From contig RZYT01000004.1 of assembly GCA_009930195.1 (NCBI GenBank), positions 1-33,950 on the forward strand: 33,950 nt of DNA, written 5' to 3'. The notes under the pieces were generated by a model that did not search any database, had not been told where the DNA came from, and saw only the letters and a program-made list of their open reading frames with translations. Position 1 is the stretch's first letter, and the number at the start of each line of letters is the position of its first letter. This DNA is from Spirochaetia bacterium (GTDB taxonomy: Bacteria > Spirochaetota > Spirochaetia > Sphaerochaetales > Sphaerochaetaceae). The translations under genes were made by a program, and so were the position numbers. Below are positions 22,238-28,927 of the stretch, one piece after another.

Positions 22238-22909
22238 ATGAACACAACGAACAGAGGGATTCCCATTCCCACCATCAAGCGTTTCCCGTCATACCTCAGA
22301 TTGCTCAAGGGGTATCGTGATGAGGGTATGCAGACCGTGTCTGCTACCGTTCTTGCGGAAGAGTTGGGGCTCAAGCCGATCCAGGTGCGCAAGGATATCT
22401 CCTGCACCGGCATCGAGGGGAAGCCGAAGGTGGGATTTACCGTCATCAAGCTCATCGATGCAATCATCCATACCCTCGGATGGGACAATGCAACCGATGC
22501 CATTCTCATCGGAGCAGGGCATCTCGGTTCGGCTCTTGCCCGGTATGAGGGGTTTGAGAGCTATGGACTGAAGATTGTTGCTGCGTTTGACATTGACCCA
22601 AGCAAGTGCGGATCGTTTCTGGGGGAGGTCCCGGTCTTCCTGCTCGACCAGCTCAGCCGATACATCGAGGAAAACCATGTGAATATCGGCGTTCTGGCCG
22701 TTCCTGCCGTCCAGGCCCAGGAAGTTGCTGAGCTGCTGGTCTCCTGTGGCATTCTGGCAATCTGGAACTTTGCCCCGAAGGACCTGAAGTTGCCCGAGCG
22801 TGTGGTGGTCCAGCGTACGGATCTTGCCACCAGTTTTGCCGTGCTCTCCGCCAAGGTAAAGCGAAAGATGAACAAGGAAGAGTTGCTCGGGGAAGAGGAC
22901 GAGTGGTAA
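22238..22909 (+). CDS. rex: Redox-sensing transcriptional repressor Rex
   Basis: A 223-residue dimeric repressor that reads the NADH/NAD+ ratio. The N-terminal winged helix (about 1-80) has the Rex pattern R-F-P-S-Y-L-R-L-L and L-G-L-K-P-I-Q-V-R-K-D-I. A Rossmann domain follows, with G-A-G-H-L-G at 92-97. Rex binds DNA at low NADH and lets go at high NADH, so fermentative and hydrogen-producing genes are switched on under reducing conditions. Its position just before the hydrogenase cluster suggests that cluster as a target. An AGGAG ribosome binding site precedes the ATG. The highly charged C-terminal end (K-R-K-M-N-K-E-E) is ordinary. Confidence 0.95.
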   Translation: MNTTNRGIPIPTIKRFPSYLRLLKGYRDEGMQTVSATVLAEELGLKPIQVRKDISCTGIEGKPKVGFTVIKLIDAIIHTLGWDNATDAILIGAGHLGSALARYEGFESYGLKIVAAFDIDPSKCGSFLGEVPVFLLDQLSRYIEENHVNIGVLAVPAVQAQEVAELLVSCGILAIWNFAPKDLKLPERVVVQRTDLATSFAVLSAKVKRKMNKEELLGEEDEW

Positions 22910-23006
22910 AACAAATGCATTGTTTGGTGAATTGTTTTTGCAGAATGATAAATAATGTGAAGACAGTAATAATAAAAACAGATTTAGCCGAATAATCTAC
23001 CATTAA

Positions 23007-23026
23007 ATTGTGTTACGTTCACGAAT
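23007..23026. promoter_or_regulatory. Tentative Rex-like operator
   Basis: ATTGTG and CACGAAT lie 7 bases apart and are inverted copies apart from one extra base (ATTGTG against ATTCGTG). Rex sites have the form TTGTG-A-A-N4-T-T-CACAA, so this is only a partial fit. It lies 25 bases upstream of the -35 box of the hydrogenase operon. Confidence 0.3.
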
Positions 23027-23050
23027 AAAATACCTTAATCACTAAATTTA

Positions 23051-23080
23051 TTGACGTCTCCCCCACCTTCGCGTTAGTAT
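23051..23080 (+). promoter_or_regulatory. Promoter of the hydrogenase operon
   Basis: TTGACG (23051-23056), 18 bases and TAGTAT (23075-23080) give a start near 23087, 25 bases before the first ATG. The preceding 22910-23050 is A/T-rich, far more so than the surrounding genes, as expected of a control region. Confidence 0.55.
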
Positions 23081-23111
23081 GTGGCCAGCATAAGAACATG
23101 AGGTTTTCAGC

Positions 23112-23372
23112 ATGGAAAAATTGGTCGTCGAGCTCTGTATGGGAAGTTCCTGTTTCGCCCGGGGCAATGCGCAAACGCTTGCTGCCTTGGAGACCTTCCT
23201 CAAAGAGGAGGGTCTGGGAGAACGTGTGGAACTGGTTGGGCATCTCTGCCTTGGTTCTTGCTCAAAAGGACCCAATCTGAGAATTGGGGAGACAACCTAC
23301 AGTGGTCTTGACGCTGCCTGTGTCATTGACCTTGTCCGCTCTGCGCTGAAAGACCAGGGAGCGATGGTATGA
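23112..23372 (+). CDS. Thioredoxin-like [2Fe-2S] ferredoxin (NuoE-like), first copy
   Basis: An 86-residue small iron-sulfur protein. Four cysteines sit as C-x4-C near the N-terminus (C-M-G-S-S-C) and C-x3-C further on (C-L-G-S-C), the [2Fe-2S] pattern of NuoE and the thioredoxin-like ferredoxins. It probably passes electrons to or from the following hydrogenase-like sensor. It overlaps that gene by 4 bases (ATGATC), so the two are translationally coupled. Thermotoga maritima carries a similar small ferredoxin gene in front of its sensory hydrogenase. A GAGG ribosome binding site precedes the ATG. The electron partner is inferred from context. Confidence 0.88.
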   Translation: MEKLVVELCMGSSCFARGNAQTLAALETFLKEEGLGERVELVGHLCLGSCSKGPNLRIGETTYSGLDAACVIDLVRSALKDQGAMV

Positions 23373-25180
23373 TCCACCCCATCTATACCGAGCTGACCGA
23401 GTGCCGCGACTGTTACAAGTGTGTGCGTGGCTGTCCGGTGAAGGCCATCCAGGTCAAGGACGGTTCGGCAGTGGTTGTGAAAGACCGTTGCATTTACTGC
23501 GGACACTGTGTGGACATCTGCCCCTCCCATGCAAAGAAGATTCGCAACGACCTTGCCCGTGTCCGCCAGTTCCTTACCAGTGGGCGGAAAATCTACTGCA
23601 GTCTTGCCCCCTCTGCTGCATCCGAATTTCCTGACGGAATGGATGCCTTGGTCCTTGCCTTGCACCAGCTTGGGTTCAGTGGGGTCAGTGAGACCGCTCT
23701 GGGAGCAGCTTTGGTCAATGAAGCCATCGAGACGTATGCCCTGGAGCATGATGGCGCTTGCAACAAGATTTCCACTGCCTGCCCAACAGTGGTCCAGGCC
23801 ATCAAGAAGTACTATCCGTCCTTGGTTGACCATCTGAGCAACATACCCTCTCCGCTGCAGTGCCACAGCGCCTATCTTCGCAAGCTGTACGGCCAGGAGA
23901 TCGGCATTGTGTTCATCGGGCCTTGCATCGCCAAGAAAGTGGAAGCGGATGAGACTCCCGGCTATCCCGATTTTTCCCTCACGTTCGAGGAGCTTCGCAC
24001 CTGGCTGGATCTGGAGCATTTCGATCTTGCCCTTCTCTCTGCCCAGATTGCCGCTGACCCAACCCTGGTTCCTGCCTTTGTGCCGTGCAGGGCAGGAAAG
24101 TCCACACTCTATCCGGTGGAGGGCGGCATGATCGCCTCCCTTGCCTGGGGTTCCGATCCATTCCAGACCCATGCGGTGGCCATCAGTGGTTCCACCCAAG
24201 TGCTGGGTACTCTTGGAGGGATGCAGTGCGGACAGGAGCACAACAACTTCCTGGAATTGCTCTTCTGTGAAGGCGGGTGCATCAACGGGCCCGGAGCGGA
24301 AAAGGGGCGTTCATCGGCTTCCAAGAAAGCCCTTGCTTCGCGCTATACCCGCAGTCGCATCGCAGCAGCAGGACCTGTCTTCGGTGGAGATCCTGCGTTT
24401 GTCCGCCTTCTGTTGGATAAGGGCTACTCCCTCATTGAGGAACCGGGAAAGGTGGAAACCGATCTTCCTGTCTCCTCATTCGTTTCCAAGCACAATGAAG
24501 ATGAGATTGGGCGTGCCCTGAAGTTCCTTGGCAAGCGGGACAAGGCTGAGGAGCTGAACTGCGGTGGTTGCGGCTACAACAGCTGCCGGGAGATGGCCAT
24601 CGCCTACCTTGACGGAATGGCAGAGCCGGAAATGTGTGTAACCAAGATGCGCAAGGAAGCCCAGAGCAAGATTGATGTGCTGCTGCGTACCATTCCCATC
24701 GGAGTGGTCATTGTCGACGACCAGCTGCGCATCGTCGATTGCAACTCCAGTTTTCTTCGCCTCTTCAGCGAGGTGGACTTTGCGATCGAAGGGGAGTTGC
24801 TCAATCTGGTGGGAGGCCTTCCCCTGGAGCGCTTTGTTCCCTTCCATGAAAAGTTCCGTGACCAGTTTGCCAATGCTCGGGTGCAGCAGTACCGCCTCCA
24901 CTACCAGGACAAGTTCCTGAAGGTCACCTTCTTCTCGGTGGAGAAACAGCATCTGGTGGGAGCGCTTTTTGAGGATATCACCACACCCACGGTACGCCGG
25001 GAGACGGTGATCAAGAAGGCCGAGGATGTCATCCAGAAGAGCCTGGAAACGGTTCAGCAGATTGCCTCCCTTTTGGGGGAAAATGCAGCGGAGACGGAGA
25101 TCATGCTCAACAGTCTCATTGATGCGTTCAAGGTTCCTGCAGCCAATCAGAGTGATGGGTTTACCAAGGAAGAGTCATGA
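23369..25180 (+). CDS. hydS: Sensory [FeFe]-hydrogenase with PAS domain (HydS, group C)
   Basis: A 603-residue multidomain protein. Two [4Fe-4S] ferredoxin motifs come first (Cys12, 15, 18, 22 and Cys41, 44, 47, 51). The H-cluster domain follows, with S-T-A-C-P (Cys138), G-P-C-I-A-K (Cys186) and F-C-E-G-G-C-I-N-G-P-G (Cys300, Cys304). Ala137 replaces the cysteine that relays protons in catalytic hydrogenases (T-S-C-C-P), the known mark of slow, sensory HydS proteins. Next is a further cluster motif, C-G-G-C-G-Y-N-S-C (398-406), then a PAS domain (about 430-540) and a helical tail. It probably senses hydrogen or redox state and signals through the PAS domain. It overlaps the phosphatase gene by 4 bases. 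No histidine kinase domain is attached. Confidence 0.9.
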   Translation: MIHPIYTELTECRDCYKCVRGCPVKAIQVKDGSAVVVKDRCIYCGHCVDICPSHAKKIRNDLARVRQFLTSGRKIYCSLAPSAASEFPDGMDALVLALHQLGFSGVSETALGAALVNEAIETYALEHDGACNKISTACPTVVQAIKKYYPSLVDHLSNIPSPLQCHSAYLRKLYGQEIGIVFIGPCIAKKVEADETPGYPDFSLTFEELRTWLDLEHFDLALLSAQIAADPTLVPAFVPCRAGKSTLYPVEGGMIASLAWGSDPFQTHAVAISGSTQVLGTLGGMQCGQEHNNFLELLFCEGGCINGPGAEKGRSSASKKALASRYTRSRIAAAGPVFGGDPAFVRLLLDKGYSLIEEPGKVETDLPVSSFVSKHNEDEIGRALKFLGKRDKAEELNCGGCGYNSCREMAIAYLDGMAEPEMCVTKMRKEAQSKIDVLLRTIPIGVVIVDDQLRIVDCNSSFLRLFSEVDFAIEGELLNLVGGLPLERFVPFHEKFRDQFANARVQQYRLHYQDKFLKVTFFSVEKQHLVGALFEDITTPTVRRETVIKKAEDVIQKSLETVQQIASLLGENAAETEIMLNSLIDAFKVPAANQSDGFTKEES

Positions 25181-26370
25181 ACGACATTTTCATCGACGTG
25201 GACTATGCACAGATCTACAAGCACGGCCAGAAGATTGGGGGGGACGTATTCCTGCTCTCCCGCAATCCTGAGAACGACCAGATCGTGTGTACACTCAGTG
25301 ATGGCCTGGGCAGTGGCGTGAAAGCCAATGTGCTTGCAAGCCTTACCGCCCGCATGGCCCACAAATTGAGCTTCAGCCCAATGGATCTCACCCACTCGGC
25401 ACGCATCATCATGAATACGCTGCCGGTCTGCAAAGAACGTAAGATCAGCTATGCAACCTTCACCATCGCCGATATCCGCCATGAGGAGGGGGAGGAAGTG
25501 AAGGTGAACCTGGTTGAGTATGACAACCCGTCAGCCTTGGTGTTCCGTGGCCCAAACAGCTATCTCTGGCAGCCGGAGCGCATAGATCTTGAACGTGAGG
25601 GAGCATTCAAGCAGGAGGTGCTCGGGCATTCCCAGCTGAAGCTGTCCATAGGAAGTCGTCTGGTGATCTTCAGCGATGGCGTTACCCAGGCGGGGATGGG
25701 CAAGGCCCTTCCCCTGGGCTGGCGCCTTGAGGGCGTTCGCAGCTTTGCCCATGACCAGATTGAGGCCAATCCCGACATCTCGAGCCACGACTTGGCCCAG
25801 GCCATTGTGTGCAGGGCTCACAGCCTTGACCGGCTCAGTGCAAAGGACGACATCACCTGCATGGTGGTCTATGTGCGCAAACCCCGAAGGACGCTGGTGG
25901 TGACCGGTCCTCCCTTTACGCCTGAGCACGATCAGGATCTGGTGGAGAAGATCCGTCACTTCGAGGGAAAGAAAATAGTAAGTGGGGGAACGACGGCGCA
26001 GATCGTCAGCCGCCTGCTTGAAAAGCCGCTGAAGGTTGATATGAGTTGTTGGTCGCCCCAGGTTCCTCCCTGCTCTACGATGGAAGGAATCGATCTGGTG
26101 ACTGAGGGTATGCTCACCTTGAGCAAGGTGGCCATTGCCCTCGAACAGAAGAAACCGGTACGCTCCCTGCCCAATGATGCGGTGAGAAAGTTCATCCAGG
26201 TGATGCAGGAGAGCGACCAGGTCCACTTCATCGTAGGAACGAAAATCAATGAGGCTCACCAGGATCCCAACATCCCGGTGGAGATAGGGATACGCAGAAC
26301 CTTGATCGGAAGGTTGCGCAAGGCCTTGGAAGACAATTATCTGAAAGAGACGTCACAGGAATATATCTGA
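25177..26370 (+). CDS. SpoIIE/PP2C-type serine phosphatase with C-terminal extension
   Basis: A 397-residue cytoplasmic protein with no membrane helix. Residues 1-230 form a PP2C/SpoIIE-like phosphatase domain. The metal-binding acids are visible in L-S-D-G-L-G-S-G, in I-F-S-D-G-V-T-Q-A and in A-K-D-D-I-T-C-M-V. The remaining 165 residues fit no domain I recognise. They include G-G-T-T-A-Q-I-V-S-R-L-L and L-V-T-E-G-M-L-T-L-S-K. The ATG overlaps the HydS stop (ATGA). PP2C phosphatases next to HydS are known from Thermotoga, so it is probably the output of the sensor, dephosphorylating an unknown protein such as an anti-sigma antagonist. The link to HydS is inferred from gene order and coupling. 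Confidence 0.85.
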   Translation: MNDIFIDVDYAQIYKHGQKIGGDVFLLSRNPENDQIVCTLSDGLGSGVKANVLASLTARMAHKLSFSPMDLTHSARIIMNTLPVCKERKISYATFTIADIRHEEGEEVKVNLVEYDNPSALVFRGPNSYLWQPERIDLEREGAFKQEVLGHSQLKLSIGSRLVIFSDGVTQAGMGKALPLGWRLEGVRSFAHDQIEANPDISSHDLAQAIVCRAHSLDRLSAKDDITCMVVYVRKPRRTLVVTGPPFTPEHDQDLVEKIRHFEGKKIVSGGTTAQIVSRLLEKPLKVDMSCWSPQVPPCSTMEGIDLVTEGMLTLSKVAIALEQKKPVRSLPNDAVRKFIQVMQESDQVHFIVGTKINEAHQDPNIPVEIGIRRTLIGRLRKALEDNYLKETSQEYI

Positions 26371-26385
26371 CGGAAGGAGAACAGG

Positions 26386-26652
26386 ATGGGAAAGAAAGAG
26401 CGGGTATCAGTAAAAATTTGCGTGGGAACAGCCTGCTTTGTGCAGGGTGGTGCCGATTTGCTGCTGTACAATGAGTTCCTGGATCCGGTGGTCTTGGGTG
26501 GCTGCGATATCGAAGGGGTATCCTGTCTTGGCGGATGCAAGGATCCCAATGCCAAGAATCGTCCCCCATACGTCCAGATCGGAGGCGTCATCCATGGGGA
26601 TATGACCCAGGAGAAGCTTTGCAAGCTGCTTGCGGAGGCTGTCCATGCTTGA
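26386..26652 (+). CDS. Thioredoxin-like [2Fe-2S] ferredoxin, second copy
   Basis: An 88-residue protein related to the one at 23112, with the same cluster layout: C-V-G-T-A-C (C-x4-C) and C-L-G-G-C (C-x3-C), then a variable loop K-N-R-P-P-Y. An extra Cys lies before the second pair (G-G-C-D) and another near the end (L-C-K-L-L). It should be an electron carrier for the hydrogenase encoded next, which overlaps it by 8 bases. Each H-cluster protein in the operon is thus preceded by its own small ferredoxin. The ribosome binding site is GGAAGGAG. Confidence 0.87.
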   Translation: MGKKERVSVKICVGTACFVQGGADLLLYNEFLDPVVLGGCDIEGVSCLGGCKDPNAKNRPPYVQIGGVIHGDMTQEKLCKLLAEAVHA

Positions 26653-28117
26653 ATTGAACAACCAGTATACGGTGATGAAGCGACAAGTCCATGCCCAGGT
26701 GCTCAAGGCATTTTTTGCCGGGACGCTGGAGCAGGATGTGGATGCGCTTCCCATCAAGATCATTCCCAAGTCCAGGATATCGAACCGTTGCTGCATCTAC
26801 AAGGAACGGGCAATGGTCCGCTACCGGATCATGGCACTGATGGGCATCAACATCGAGACGGATGATGATGAACTGAGAACGCTCTCTTCCTACGTAAGGG
26901 AAGTCATGGAAGAGGACAAGCATGTCGCCCCGATCCTGACCACCATCAGCACCGCCTGCTCGTCCTGTCCTCCTGACCGCTATCTCATCAGTGAGGCTTG
27001 CCGTGGATGTTTTGCCCGGCCCTGCCTGGCGAACTGCCCGAAAGACTGCATCTCCTTCATCAACGGTCAGGCTCATATCGATGAGAGCCGGTGCATCCGT
27101 TGCGGCAAGTGCAAGGAGGTCTGCCCCTTCCATGCCGTGGTGCATATCCCTGTCCCTTGCGAGGAGGCGTGTCCGGTCAATGCGGTCAAAAAGAACGAGG
27201 AAGGGTATGTTGAGATAGACTACCAGAAGTGCATAAGCTGTGGGCGCTGTGCGATGAGCTGCCCCTTTGGTGCCATTGTGGAGCGCTCAGGCGTCATGCC
27301 TGTGGTGAAGATGCTCAAGGCAGGGGCTCATGTGACCGCTCTCATCGCCCCCGCAATCGAAGGGCAGTTTCCCGGCACCCTTGCCCAGATAAAGCAAGCG
27401 CTCCTGGCAACCGGATTCTCCTCAGTCGTGGAAGTCTCCCAGGGTGCTGAGACAACCAGCCTCCATGAGGCTCATGAACTGAGCGAACGCAAGGCTGAGG
27501 GAAAGGGGTACATGACCACCAGTTGTTGTCCGGCTTACATGGAACTGGTGGACAAGCATCTCCCCTTCCTTGCCGAGCGGCGTTCTTCAGCCCTTTCCCC
27601 GATGGGTTATGCGGCCTTGGAGGCGAAACAGGCCAATCCCCAGACCAAGACGGTCTTCATCGGGCCCTGTCTTGCCAAGCGGGTTGAAGCCGTGAAATTG
27701 AAGACCATCGACGGAGTGCTGACCTTCAGCGAGCTGGCAAGCCTGTTCATCGCAAAGGGTGTGGACGTCCGGGAGATGGAGATGGCTGATCTTGGCTCCA
27801 CCGACTCCTTTGAGGATTGTCGTGGGTTTGCACTCAGCGGAGGGGTGGCATCGTGCGTGCTCAGCCGGTATGCAAAGGCTGATGAGGTGGCCGTCCTGCC
27901 GATCAACGGCATTGACAAGAAGATGTTCCGGACCATGAAAATCTGGGACAAGCGCCAGCCTGAGGCCGACCTGATCGAGGTCATGTGCTGCGAAGGGGGT
28001 TGCATCAACGGCCCCGGCGTGGTAGTAAAGCCTTCTGTAGCCTTGAAACTGAGGGGCGGCAACAAGGCTGCCACTCCGGTGAAGGCGATGCGCTCCATTG
28101 TGGGAGCAAGGGAGTAA
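26645..28117 (+). CDS. [FeFe]-hydrogenase, group B type
   Basis: A 490-residue catalytic-type hydrogenase that reversibly reduces protons to hydrogen. About 95 N-terminal residues have no match that I recognise. A cysteine-rich stretch of about 125 residues holds C-S-S-C, C-R-G-C and ferredoxin motifs such as C-I-R-C-G-K-C and C-I-S-C-G-R-C. The H-cluster motifs are T-S-C-C-P (Cys294, Cys295), G-P-C-L-A-K (Cys342) and M-C-C-E-G-G-C-I-N-G-P-G (Cys449, Cys453). Cys294, the proton-relay cysteine, is kept, unlike in HydS. The layout fits group B monomeric hydrogenases of anaerobes. I start at the ATG after GGAGG, inside the ferredoxin gene. The maturation genes hydEFG are not in the window. Confidence 0.9.
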   Translation: MLELNNQYTVMKRQVHAQVLKAFFAGTLEQDVDALPIKIIPKSRISNRCCIYKERAMVRYRIMALMGINIETDDDELRTLSSYVREVMEEDKHVAPILTTISTACSSCPPDRYLISEACRGCFARPCLANCPKDCISFINGQAHIDESRCIRCGKCKEVCPFHAVVHIPVPCEEACPVNAVKKNEEGYVEIDYQKCISCGRCAMSCPFGAIVERSGVMPVVKMLKAGAHVTALIAPAIEGQFPGTLAQIKQALLATGFSSVVEVSQGAETTSLHEAHELSERKAEGKGYMTTSCCPAYMELVDKHLPFLAERRSSALSPMGYAALEAKQANPQTKTVFIGPCLAKRVEAVKLKTIDGVLTFSELASLFIAKGVDVREMEMADLGSTDSFEDCRGFALSGGVASCVLSRYAKADEVAVLPINGIDKKMFRTMKIWDKRQPEADLIEVMCCEGGCINGPGVVVKPSVALKLRGGNKAATPVKAMRSIVGARE

Positions 28118-28121
28118 GGCA

Positions 28122-28601
28122 ATGCACGATTTGGGAAGCGGTTCTGTCCTTGCACAGCTTGAGGCGTTGGTGGATGCATGGGATGGCAGCATCGAAAGCC
28201 GGTACTGCCATCTGGCCAACGCTGCAGCCTTCTTGTACGAGCAGATGGATGACGTCATCTGGCTGGGTTTCTACCTTGCATCAGGGTCCCAAGGCATGTT
28301 GATGCTTGGCCCTTTTCAGGGAAAGATTGCTTGTACCGAAATACTGTTTGGGCGGGGGGTCTGCGGCAAAGCAGCACAGGAAGGGAAGAGCGTTCGTGTC
28401 GCAGATGTGCATGACTTTGCCGATCATATTGTGTGTGACAGTGCAAGCAACAGTGAATTGGTGGTGCCGCTTTTCGATGCAAATCACCATGTGGTTGGGG
28501 TTCTGGATGTGGACAGTGCAAGCTTCGGACGGTTTTCGGAAGATGACCAACAGTTGCTTGAGGGGGCTGCCAAGATTCTCTCACGTGTGCTTTGGACTTG
28601 A
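28122..28601 (+). CDS. msrC: Free methionine-(R)-sulfoxide reductase (GAF domain)
   Basis: A 159-residue single GAF-domain protein. Cys71, Cys81 and Cys105 sit in I-A-C-T-E, G-V-C-G-K-A and H-I-V-C-D. Their spacing of 10 and 24 matches that of the three redox cysteines of E. coli fRMsr (Cys84, 94, 118). The following N-S-E-L-V-V-P-L-F is also typical. It reduces free methionine-R-sulfoxide to methionine, using thioredoxin for regeneration. It starts 4 bases after the hydrogenase, with AAGG before the ATG, so it is probably the last gene of the hydrogen operon. A thiol repair enzyme suits oxygen-sensitive neighbours. That functional link is inferred. Confidence 0.9.
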   Translation: MHDLGSGSVLAQLEALVDAWDGSIESRYCHLANAAAFLYEQMDDVIWLGFYLASGSQGMLMLGPFQGKIACTEILFGRGVCGKAAQEGKSVRVADVHDFADHIVCDSASNSELVVPLFDANHHVVGVLDVDSASFGRFSEDDQQLLEGAAKILSRVLWT

Positions 28602-28626: not shown

Positions 28627-28632
28627 GATTGT

Positions 28633-28927
28633 CAAGGCGTTGAGAAAGACGAGTAGTCGGTAACGGAGCCACAGAGAGGATTCCCGAGGTTGAGAGGAGT
28701 CTGGCAGGCGCCCGATGAAAACCCCTTTTGAGCCGCATACCGAACGGGCAACCAAGTAGGCTATGCCGCACTCCTGGCGATACAGGTGTAATGAGCGTCT
28801 TTTCCGGCGTCAGAGAGTCGGGAAAGGAAGCAAGGTGGAACCGCGGAACATGAGAGCTCTCATGTCTTCGTCCTTGCCGGATACGGAACATGCCGTACCG
28901 GAGAGGGAAGGCATGAGGGCTTTTTTT
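28633..28927 (+). promoter_or_regulatory. T-box riboswitch (threonine) upstream of thrS
   Basis: A leader that senses uncharged tRNA. Stem I features are present: GAAAGACG-AGTA, the ACAGAGAGG bulge segment near 28671-28679 and an apical helix GATTCC/GGAGTC. The likely specifier is the threonine codon ACC at 28751-28753, followed by AAGTAGG as in many T-boxes. A second ACC at 28739 seems to be in a helix. The T-box core is AAGGTGGAACCGCGG. The antiterminator (28830-28877) forms as GCAAGG/CCTTGC around the bulge TGGAACC (28836-28842), then GCG/CGT, then a perfect ACATGAGAG/CTCTCATGT hairpin. It competes with the terminator at 28856-28927. Uncharged tRNA-Thr should favour read-through into thrS. 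The middle of stem I has about 30 bases that I could not fold. Confidence 0.92.
28856..28927 (+). terminator. T-box-controlled terminator before thrS
   Basis: GCTCTCATG continuing into TCTTC (28856-28869) pairs with GAAGG and CATGAGGGC (28907-28920), and an inner CCGG-a-TACGG/CCGTA-CCGG stem extends it. Seven T follow. Its 5' arm is shared with the antiterminator, so the two structures exclude each other. Confidence 0.9.

Follow-up and report, generated by a model that had tools for sequence, protein, structure and literature searches.

The pairing of a sensory [FeFe] hydrogenase with a protein phosphatase has been described before. HydDB distinguishes [FeFe] group C3 as 'phosphatase-linked (putative)' and proposes that its members may detect hydrogen (H2) and control processes through serine/threonine phosphatases (PMC5037454). 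In Ruminococcus albus, a PAS-containing sensory hydrogenase and a putative Ser/Thr phosphatase form a pair with a proposed sensor role, and the cluster encoding this HydS is repressed 111-fold at low H2 (PMC6776011). The hfsABCD operon of Thermoanaerobacterium likewise encodes a ferredoxin-like protein, a PAS hydrogenase, a serine phosphatase and a ferredoxin-linked hydrogenase (PMC5707799, PMC11837493). Ethanol and adhE expression rise when hfsA or hfsB is lost, but not when hfsC, hfsD or all four genes are missing (PMC5707799). The relevance of such systems is also practical, as deleting hfsB, the HydS of the hfs system, raises the ethanol yield in thermophiles. Here we analyse a system of this already known kind in a member of the Sphaerochaetaceae, located in a stretch of 33,950 nucleotides (the window; GenBank assembly GCA_009930195.1, contig RZYT01000004.1, positions 1 to 33,950). 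What we add is a conserved helical segment of about 45 residues at the C-terminus of HydS, which pairs with the phosphatase and, as sequence comparison suggests, may mark the place where the signal passes. As to how sensory [FeFe] hydrogenases relay their signal, our survey reduces the question to one short stretch, the 45 C-terminal residues of HydS, and one phosphatase.

The genes in question form a run on the forward strand of the window (23112-28601), consisting, in order, of a ferredoxin gene (Fd1), HydS, a SpoIIE-type PP2C phosphatase, a second ferredoxin gene (Fd2), a group B [FeFe] hydrogenase and a free methionine-(R)-sulfoxide reductase (fRMsr); together with a preceding Rex gene these make seven genes, all with open frames and identified products. 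Fd1 overlaps HydS, and HydS overlaps the phosphatase gene, by 4 nucleotides each, and only 15 nucleotides separate the phosphatase from Fd2, so that the tight packing noted in a preliminary description of this DNA is borne out and translational coupling within the run is likely. Fd1 (23112..23372), in the position of HfsA, is a predicted thioredoxin-fold [2Fe-2S] ferredoxin (Cys 9/14/46/50; PF01257, 33.7 bits against a cut-off of 24.8).

HydS (23369..25180; PF02906, alignment, AlphaFold model) comprises an N-terminal part with two [4Fe-4S] clusters, the H-domain, a C-terminal CX2CX4CX16C cluster (C398, C401, C406 and C423), a PAS domain and a C-terminal helical segment. PF04060 and PF13188 (PAS) both score above cut-off, a Pfam domain search found no kinase domain, and the model matches [FeFe] hydrogenases in Foldseek. 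The closest named relative of HydS is a 93% identical protein from Spirochaetales, with several of the next-closest coming from Sphaerochaeta. The H-cluster cysteines (C138, C186, C300 and C304) are intact and show no variation among 45 aligned HydS. At position 137 an Ala replaces the Cys that relays protons in catalytic enzymes. The intact H-cluster cysteines, Ala137, the PAS domain and the lack of a kinase domain had been noticed in the preliminary description, which took the loss of the relay Cys as a mark of a sensor; the latter is not supported. Among 141 helix-bearing, phosphatase-linked HydS the position is occupied by Ala in 64, Cys in 38 and Ser in 23 (other or unresolved in 16), and Ala is thus common yet not defining for a sensor.

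The HydS segment of particular interest is a predicted two-helix output element (residues 541-588, 24989..25132; motif VIxKxxxTVQxIAxLLGENAAETE), which we propose as a candidate phosphatase-docking or signalling element; it has no match among PDB sequences. The overlapping next gene (25177..26370), in the position of HfsC, encodes the SpoIIE/RsbU-type PP2C phosphatase, already recognized as PP2C-type in the preliminary description (PF07228, 40 bits against a cut-off of 25). Its catalytic part (residues 1-236) has invariant metal-binding and catalytic residues (G22 D23, D42 G43, D167 G168, D224 D225), and a model built from 42 sequences (mean pLDDT 88) has SpoIIE (E 4e-13), the RsbU domain of Rv1364c and RsbX among its nearest solved folds in Foldseek. 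The remaining part (residues 237-397, 25885..26367) is an alpha/beta domain of some 160 residues with invariant GPP, D, GG, R, EG and GxxxN motifs (GPP...D...GGTTA...R...G..LV.EG.LT...G..N), for which no convincing match was found in Pfam, NCBIfam or PDB sequences.

Judged by features and gene order, the pair appears to belong to the HydDB C3 or hfsABCD type. It shares with C3 the sensory-type H-domain, the C-terminal FeS cluster, PAS, the adjoining serine/threonine phosphatase, the lack of a fused histidine kinase and the proposed role; nothing essential differs, although the available part of the C3 text does not single out the helix or the C-terminal domain of the phosphatase (PMC5037454). 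The likeness to hfsABCD, which rests on gene order and described domains rather than on sequence orthology, is close too, but the run in the window has a second [2Fe-2S] ferredoxin before the hydrogenase and fRMsr after it. The HydS/HydA2/AdhE cluster of R. albus similarly combines a PAS sensory hydrogenase, a putative Ser/Thr phosphatase and a fermentative hydrogenase, the latter, however, given as group A1 and accompanied by AdhE (PMC6776011). HydS of Thermotoga maritima also has PAS and Ala at the relay position (A131) and shows low activity; another hydrogenase gene stands in the same operon there (PMC10055695), presumed in the preliminary description to be part of HydABC, whereas HydS in the window stands with group B.

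The distribution of the helix bears on a functional link. In 218 Spirochaetota genomes (the surveyed genomes are samples, many of them incomplete) the full phosphatase was found at 24 loci; its C-terminal domain as a lone query retrieved the same 24 and nothing elsewhere, and so did the 45-residue helix, with scores falling from 60 to 22 bits at the next match. These loci comprise 21 with HydS and three with a PAS protein only. In 398 genomes of the phylum to which a Clostridia genome belongs, 146 phosphatase and 142 helix matches were found, which form 140 pairs, the helix match ending 8-87 nucleotides 5' of the phosphatase match. One of the two unpaired helices belongs to a tandem second HydS (L164:1-4755, where two HydS genes precede a single phosphatase and the first has the helix but no phosphatase of its own), and the other has a phosphatase match on a separate contig. 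Of the six phosphatase matches left without a helix, five are fragments and one is a true orphan (L204:4587-5726, genome G234) with no PAS-helix partner and an altered active-site region, as if decaying. The suggestion of the preliminary description that HydS is a sensor-like protein with the adjoining phosphatase as its output partner is thus supported by a pairing that is almost invariant over two phyla. Among the fetched loci, neither histidine-kinase-fused group C hydrogenases (two of them checked with Pfam: HisKA and HATPase, no PAS match) nor group D hydrogenases have the helix or an adjoining phosphatase, and the helix therefore tracks the phosphatase, not the hydrogenase.

Two further observations concern individual loci. 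One contig (L137:2478-12878) has the HydS-phosphatase pair twice, at a distance of about 7.5 kb and with Rex genes in between, one pair lying 5' of a group B hydrogenase and the other 5' of NuoE-NuoF-HydA. A fusion of HydS with the phosphatase, sought as proof of interaction, was not found; the candidate, a frame of 995 amino acids in genome G584, turned out to be two genes divided by a stop.

The link is further illuminated by three related spirochaetes (L120, L121 and L122), in which the hydrogenase part is dispensed with altogether. A stand-alone PAS protein of 173-186 amino acids ends here in the HydS-type helix, and its gene overlaps the start of the phosphatase gene. All three loci are CO dehydrogenase/acetyl-CoA synthase operons, and in L120 these two enzymes (the CO dehydrogenase matching TIGR01702 with 682 bits) are accompanied by NuoE, NuoF and a NuoG-like protein as well as by a [2Fe-2S] ferredoxin and a CooF-like 4Fe-4S protein. 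The phosphatases of these loci constitute one clade (support 1.0) nested in a 137-member, otherwise hydrogenase-linked clade (support 0.997; exact position weakly supported, 0.30; midpoint root), and a loss of the hydrogenase part is thus the simpler reading of the tree. Another putative hydrogenase-free HydS (L146) was rejected, the gene being split by a run of N. Given the helix-phosphatase pairing and the PAS-only loci, the partner of the phosphatase would be the PAS-helix, and the hydrogenase an exchangeable input. We tentatively extend this, with slightly more doubt than belief, to the notion that the PAS-helix protein and the PP2C with the new C-terminal domain may be a free-standing, widespread output module acting in trans, with an [FeFe] hydrogenase as the input in most anaerobes and a different input, perhaps CO or the redox state of ferredoxin, where some spirochaetes have the module in a CO dehydrogenase/acetyl-CoA synthase operon.

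For the locus in the window, the scenario we favour, with somewhat more confidence than doubt, is that of a phosphatase-linked sensory [FeFe]-hydrogenase operon in which HydS reads H2 or redox state and switches the phosphatase in trans through its C-terminal helix. HydS, probably together with Fd1, would take electrons at the H-cluster according to H2, its presumed ligand, and to the redox state, and the signal might then travel via the C-terminal [4Fe-4S] cluster and PAS into the two-helix segment formed by the last ~45 residues, which would contact and act on the phosphatase encoded by the overlapping next gene. A possible precedent within one chain is the PAS-coiled-coil linker of RsbP and the linker of RsbU; these proteins likewise combine a sensor domain, a helical linker and a SpoIIE-type PP2C (PMC3183031, PMC12143880), and linker-driven control of PP2C phosphatases is general (PMC12143880). 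The system in the window differs from RsbP/RsbU in that sensor and phosphatase are two proteins, the phosphatase has an extra C-terminal domain and no RsbV substrate was found. The phosphatase would dephosphorylate a regulator tuning the fermentative H2 branch (the group B hydrogenase) and, in relatives, AdhE. HydS restraining the phosphatase would be consistent with the hfs genetics, but we leave the sign of control undecided, because a rescue by hfsD, to which we return below, demonstrates a route around the phosphatase.

Several results limit or weigh against this scenario. The helix-phosphatase link is partly confounded by descent, as the helix-bearing HydS form one clade in our tree (support 0.77), although the PAS-only cases break this confounding. 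When 157 HydS-phosphatase pairs (effective number 110) were subjected to direct coupling analysis, no helix-phosphatase signal emerged; one PAS column dominates the top pairs, the share of the helix is below expectation, and the analysis as a whole is uninformative. In the AlphaFold model of HydS, confidence drops to 47-61 in the helix region. In a delta-hfsABCD strain, overexpressed hfsD is sufficient to bring back the high-ethanol phenotype although hfsC is missing (PMC11837493). Finally, a search with PF01740 found no RsbV-type STAS substrate in the home genome, which is 92% complete (6.6% contamination).

The hfsD result also speaks for a rival explanation, namely that HydS is a slow, ordinary redox enzyme working with Fd1, that the phosphatase acts independently, and that the genes stand together solely because both serve fermentation, the mutant phenotypes being due to electron flow and to how much HfsD is present. 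The slight decrease of the hfsD transcript upon hfsC deletion and the polarity of the hfsA deletion (PMC5707799) fit this explanation, as do the turnover of H2 by T. maritima HydS (PMC10055695) and the relay Cys retained in more than a quarter of the HydS compared above. It leaves unexplained, however, why the PAS-helix stays with the phosphatase once the hydrogenase part is gone, and why the pair is constant whether the next genes encode group B, HydABC, AdhE or CO dehydrogenase/acetyl-CoA synthase; we therefore regard it as unlikely, if the most serious of the alternatives.

Less probable still is that HydS senses redox state via the ferredoxins rather than H2 itself, with the H-cluster merely relaying electrons. 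A [2Fe-2S] ferredoxin does lie 5' of HydS in most loci, and also 5' of the PAS-only form, and the hfsA and hfsB deletions share one phenotype (PMC5707799); yet the invariance of the H-cluster ligands and the fact that expression in R. albus follows the H2 level (PMC6776011) speak against this reading.

The search for a substrate brings in a third possibility. The only SpoIIE phosphatase of the home genome is that of the window, its sole STAS match lies in a frame of 542 amino acids, and the only small RsbW-like ATPase above cut-off is encoded on contig C536, with a DRTGG protein and a group D hydrogenase. It is conceivable that the phosphatase opposes this RsbW-like kinase in a two-sensor partner switch with the DRTGG protein as the substrate. 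Across the 218 genomes, however, most carriers of the phosphatase are without a strong group D match and several group D carriers are without the phosphatase; because the loci co-occur too rarely, we do not claim such a switch and consider it very improbable. The C536 cassette (G000:C536:17552-19654, L062:9553-11655), in which the genes for the DRTGG protein, the ATPase and the group D-type [FeFe] hydrogenase are close or overlapping, is by itself a second putative H2-sensing cassette, and its hydrogenase has Phe at the relay position.

As for the neighbouring genes, Fd2 (26386..26652) is another predicted thioredoxin-fold [2Fe-2S] ferredoxin (Cys 12/17/47/51; PF01257, 28.0 bits). The group B [FeFe] hydrogenase (26645..28117; TIGR04105, 499.4 bits against a cut-off of 450), in the position of HfsD, more likely starts at ATG 26645, with GGAGG just 5' of it, than at TTG 26630. 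It keeps the relay Cys, as noted before and as seen in all 29 sequences compared. The last gene, for fRMsr (28122..28601; YebR match with E 3e-37, GAF fold, all three catalytic Cys aligned), has a start that we correct to the more likely ATG 28122; its position 3' of the operon is restricted in our survey to Sphaerochaetaceae-type loci. The combination of a group B enzyme with two ferredoxins had been thought to set this locus apart; in fact, a survey of gene order across anaerobes, as proposed in the preliminary description, shows the same hfs-type order (Fd-HydS-phosphatase-Fd-group B) recurring in Sphaerochaetaceae and in other phyla, namely in Clostridia, Planctomycetes and Lentisphaerae besides Spirochaetota, and the arrangement is thus not due to chance. 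Other HydS-phosphatase loci carry HydABC or AdhE in place of group B. AdhE neighbours the pair in 12 of 127 regions and is absent from the run in the window; its presence beside HydS-phosphatase elsewhere (L123, L024, L025, L037 and L147) fits the published hfsB-adhE link. An Rfam search of the window gave no match. Two more [FeFe] hydrogenases of the home genome (G000:C21:10292-11164 and G000:C435:3500-4393; L001, L002), with PF02906 scores far above that of the window, are probably of group A.

The gene for the redox-sensing repressor Rex (22238..22909; NCBIfam equivalog NF003994, 260.5 bits against a cut-off of 130; PDB Rex matches) had been counted as a member of the module. It lies 202 base pairs upstream of Fd1, with a promoter-like site in between (23051-23080; the count of such sites is not above chance), and for this reason we place it outside the overlapping run. 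Upstream of Fd1 no Rex-type operator is apparent: the best site has three mismatches, the same as in shuffled sequences, and none is conserved in relatives. Rex is nevertheless a frequent neighbour of HydS-phosphatase loci. A Rex-like palindrome, TTGTCAAGGCGTTGAGAA, occurs at the other end of the run, between fRMsr and thrS (28629-28646); it departs from a relaxed Rex pattern at one position (a fit reached in 0 of 200 shuffles) but from a stricter pattern at three.

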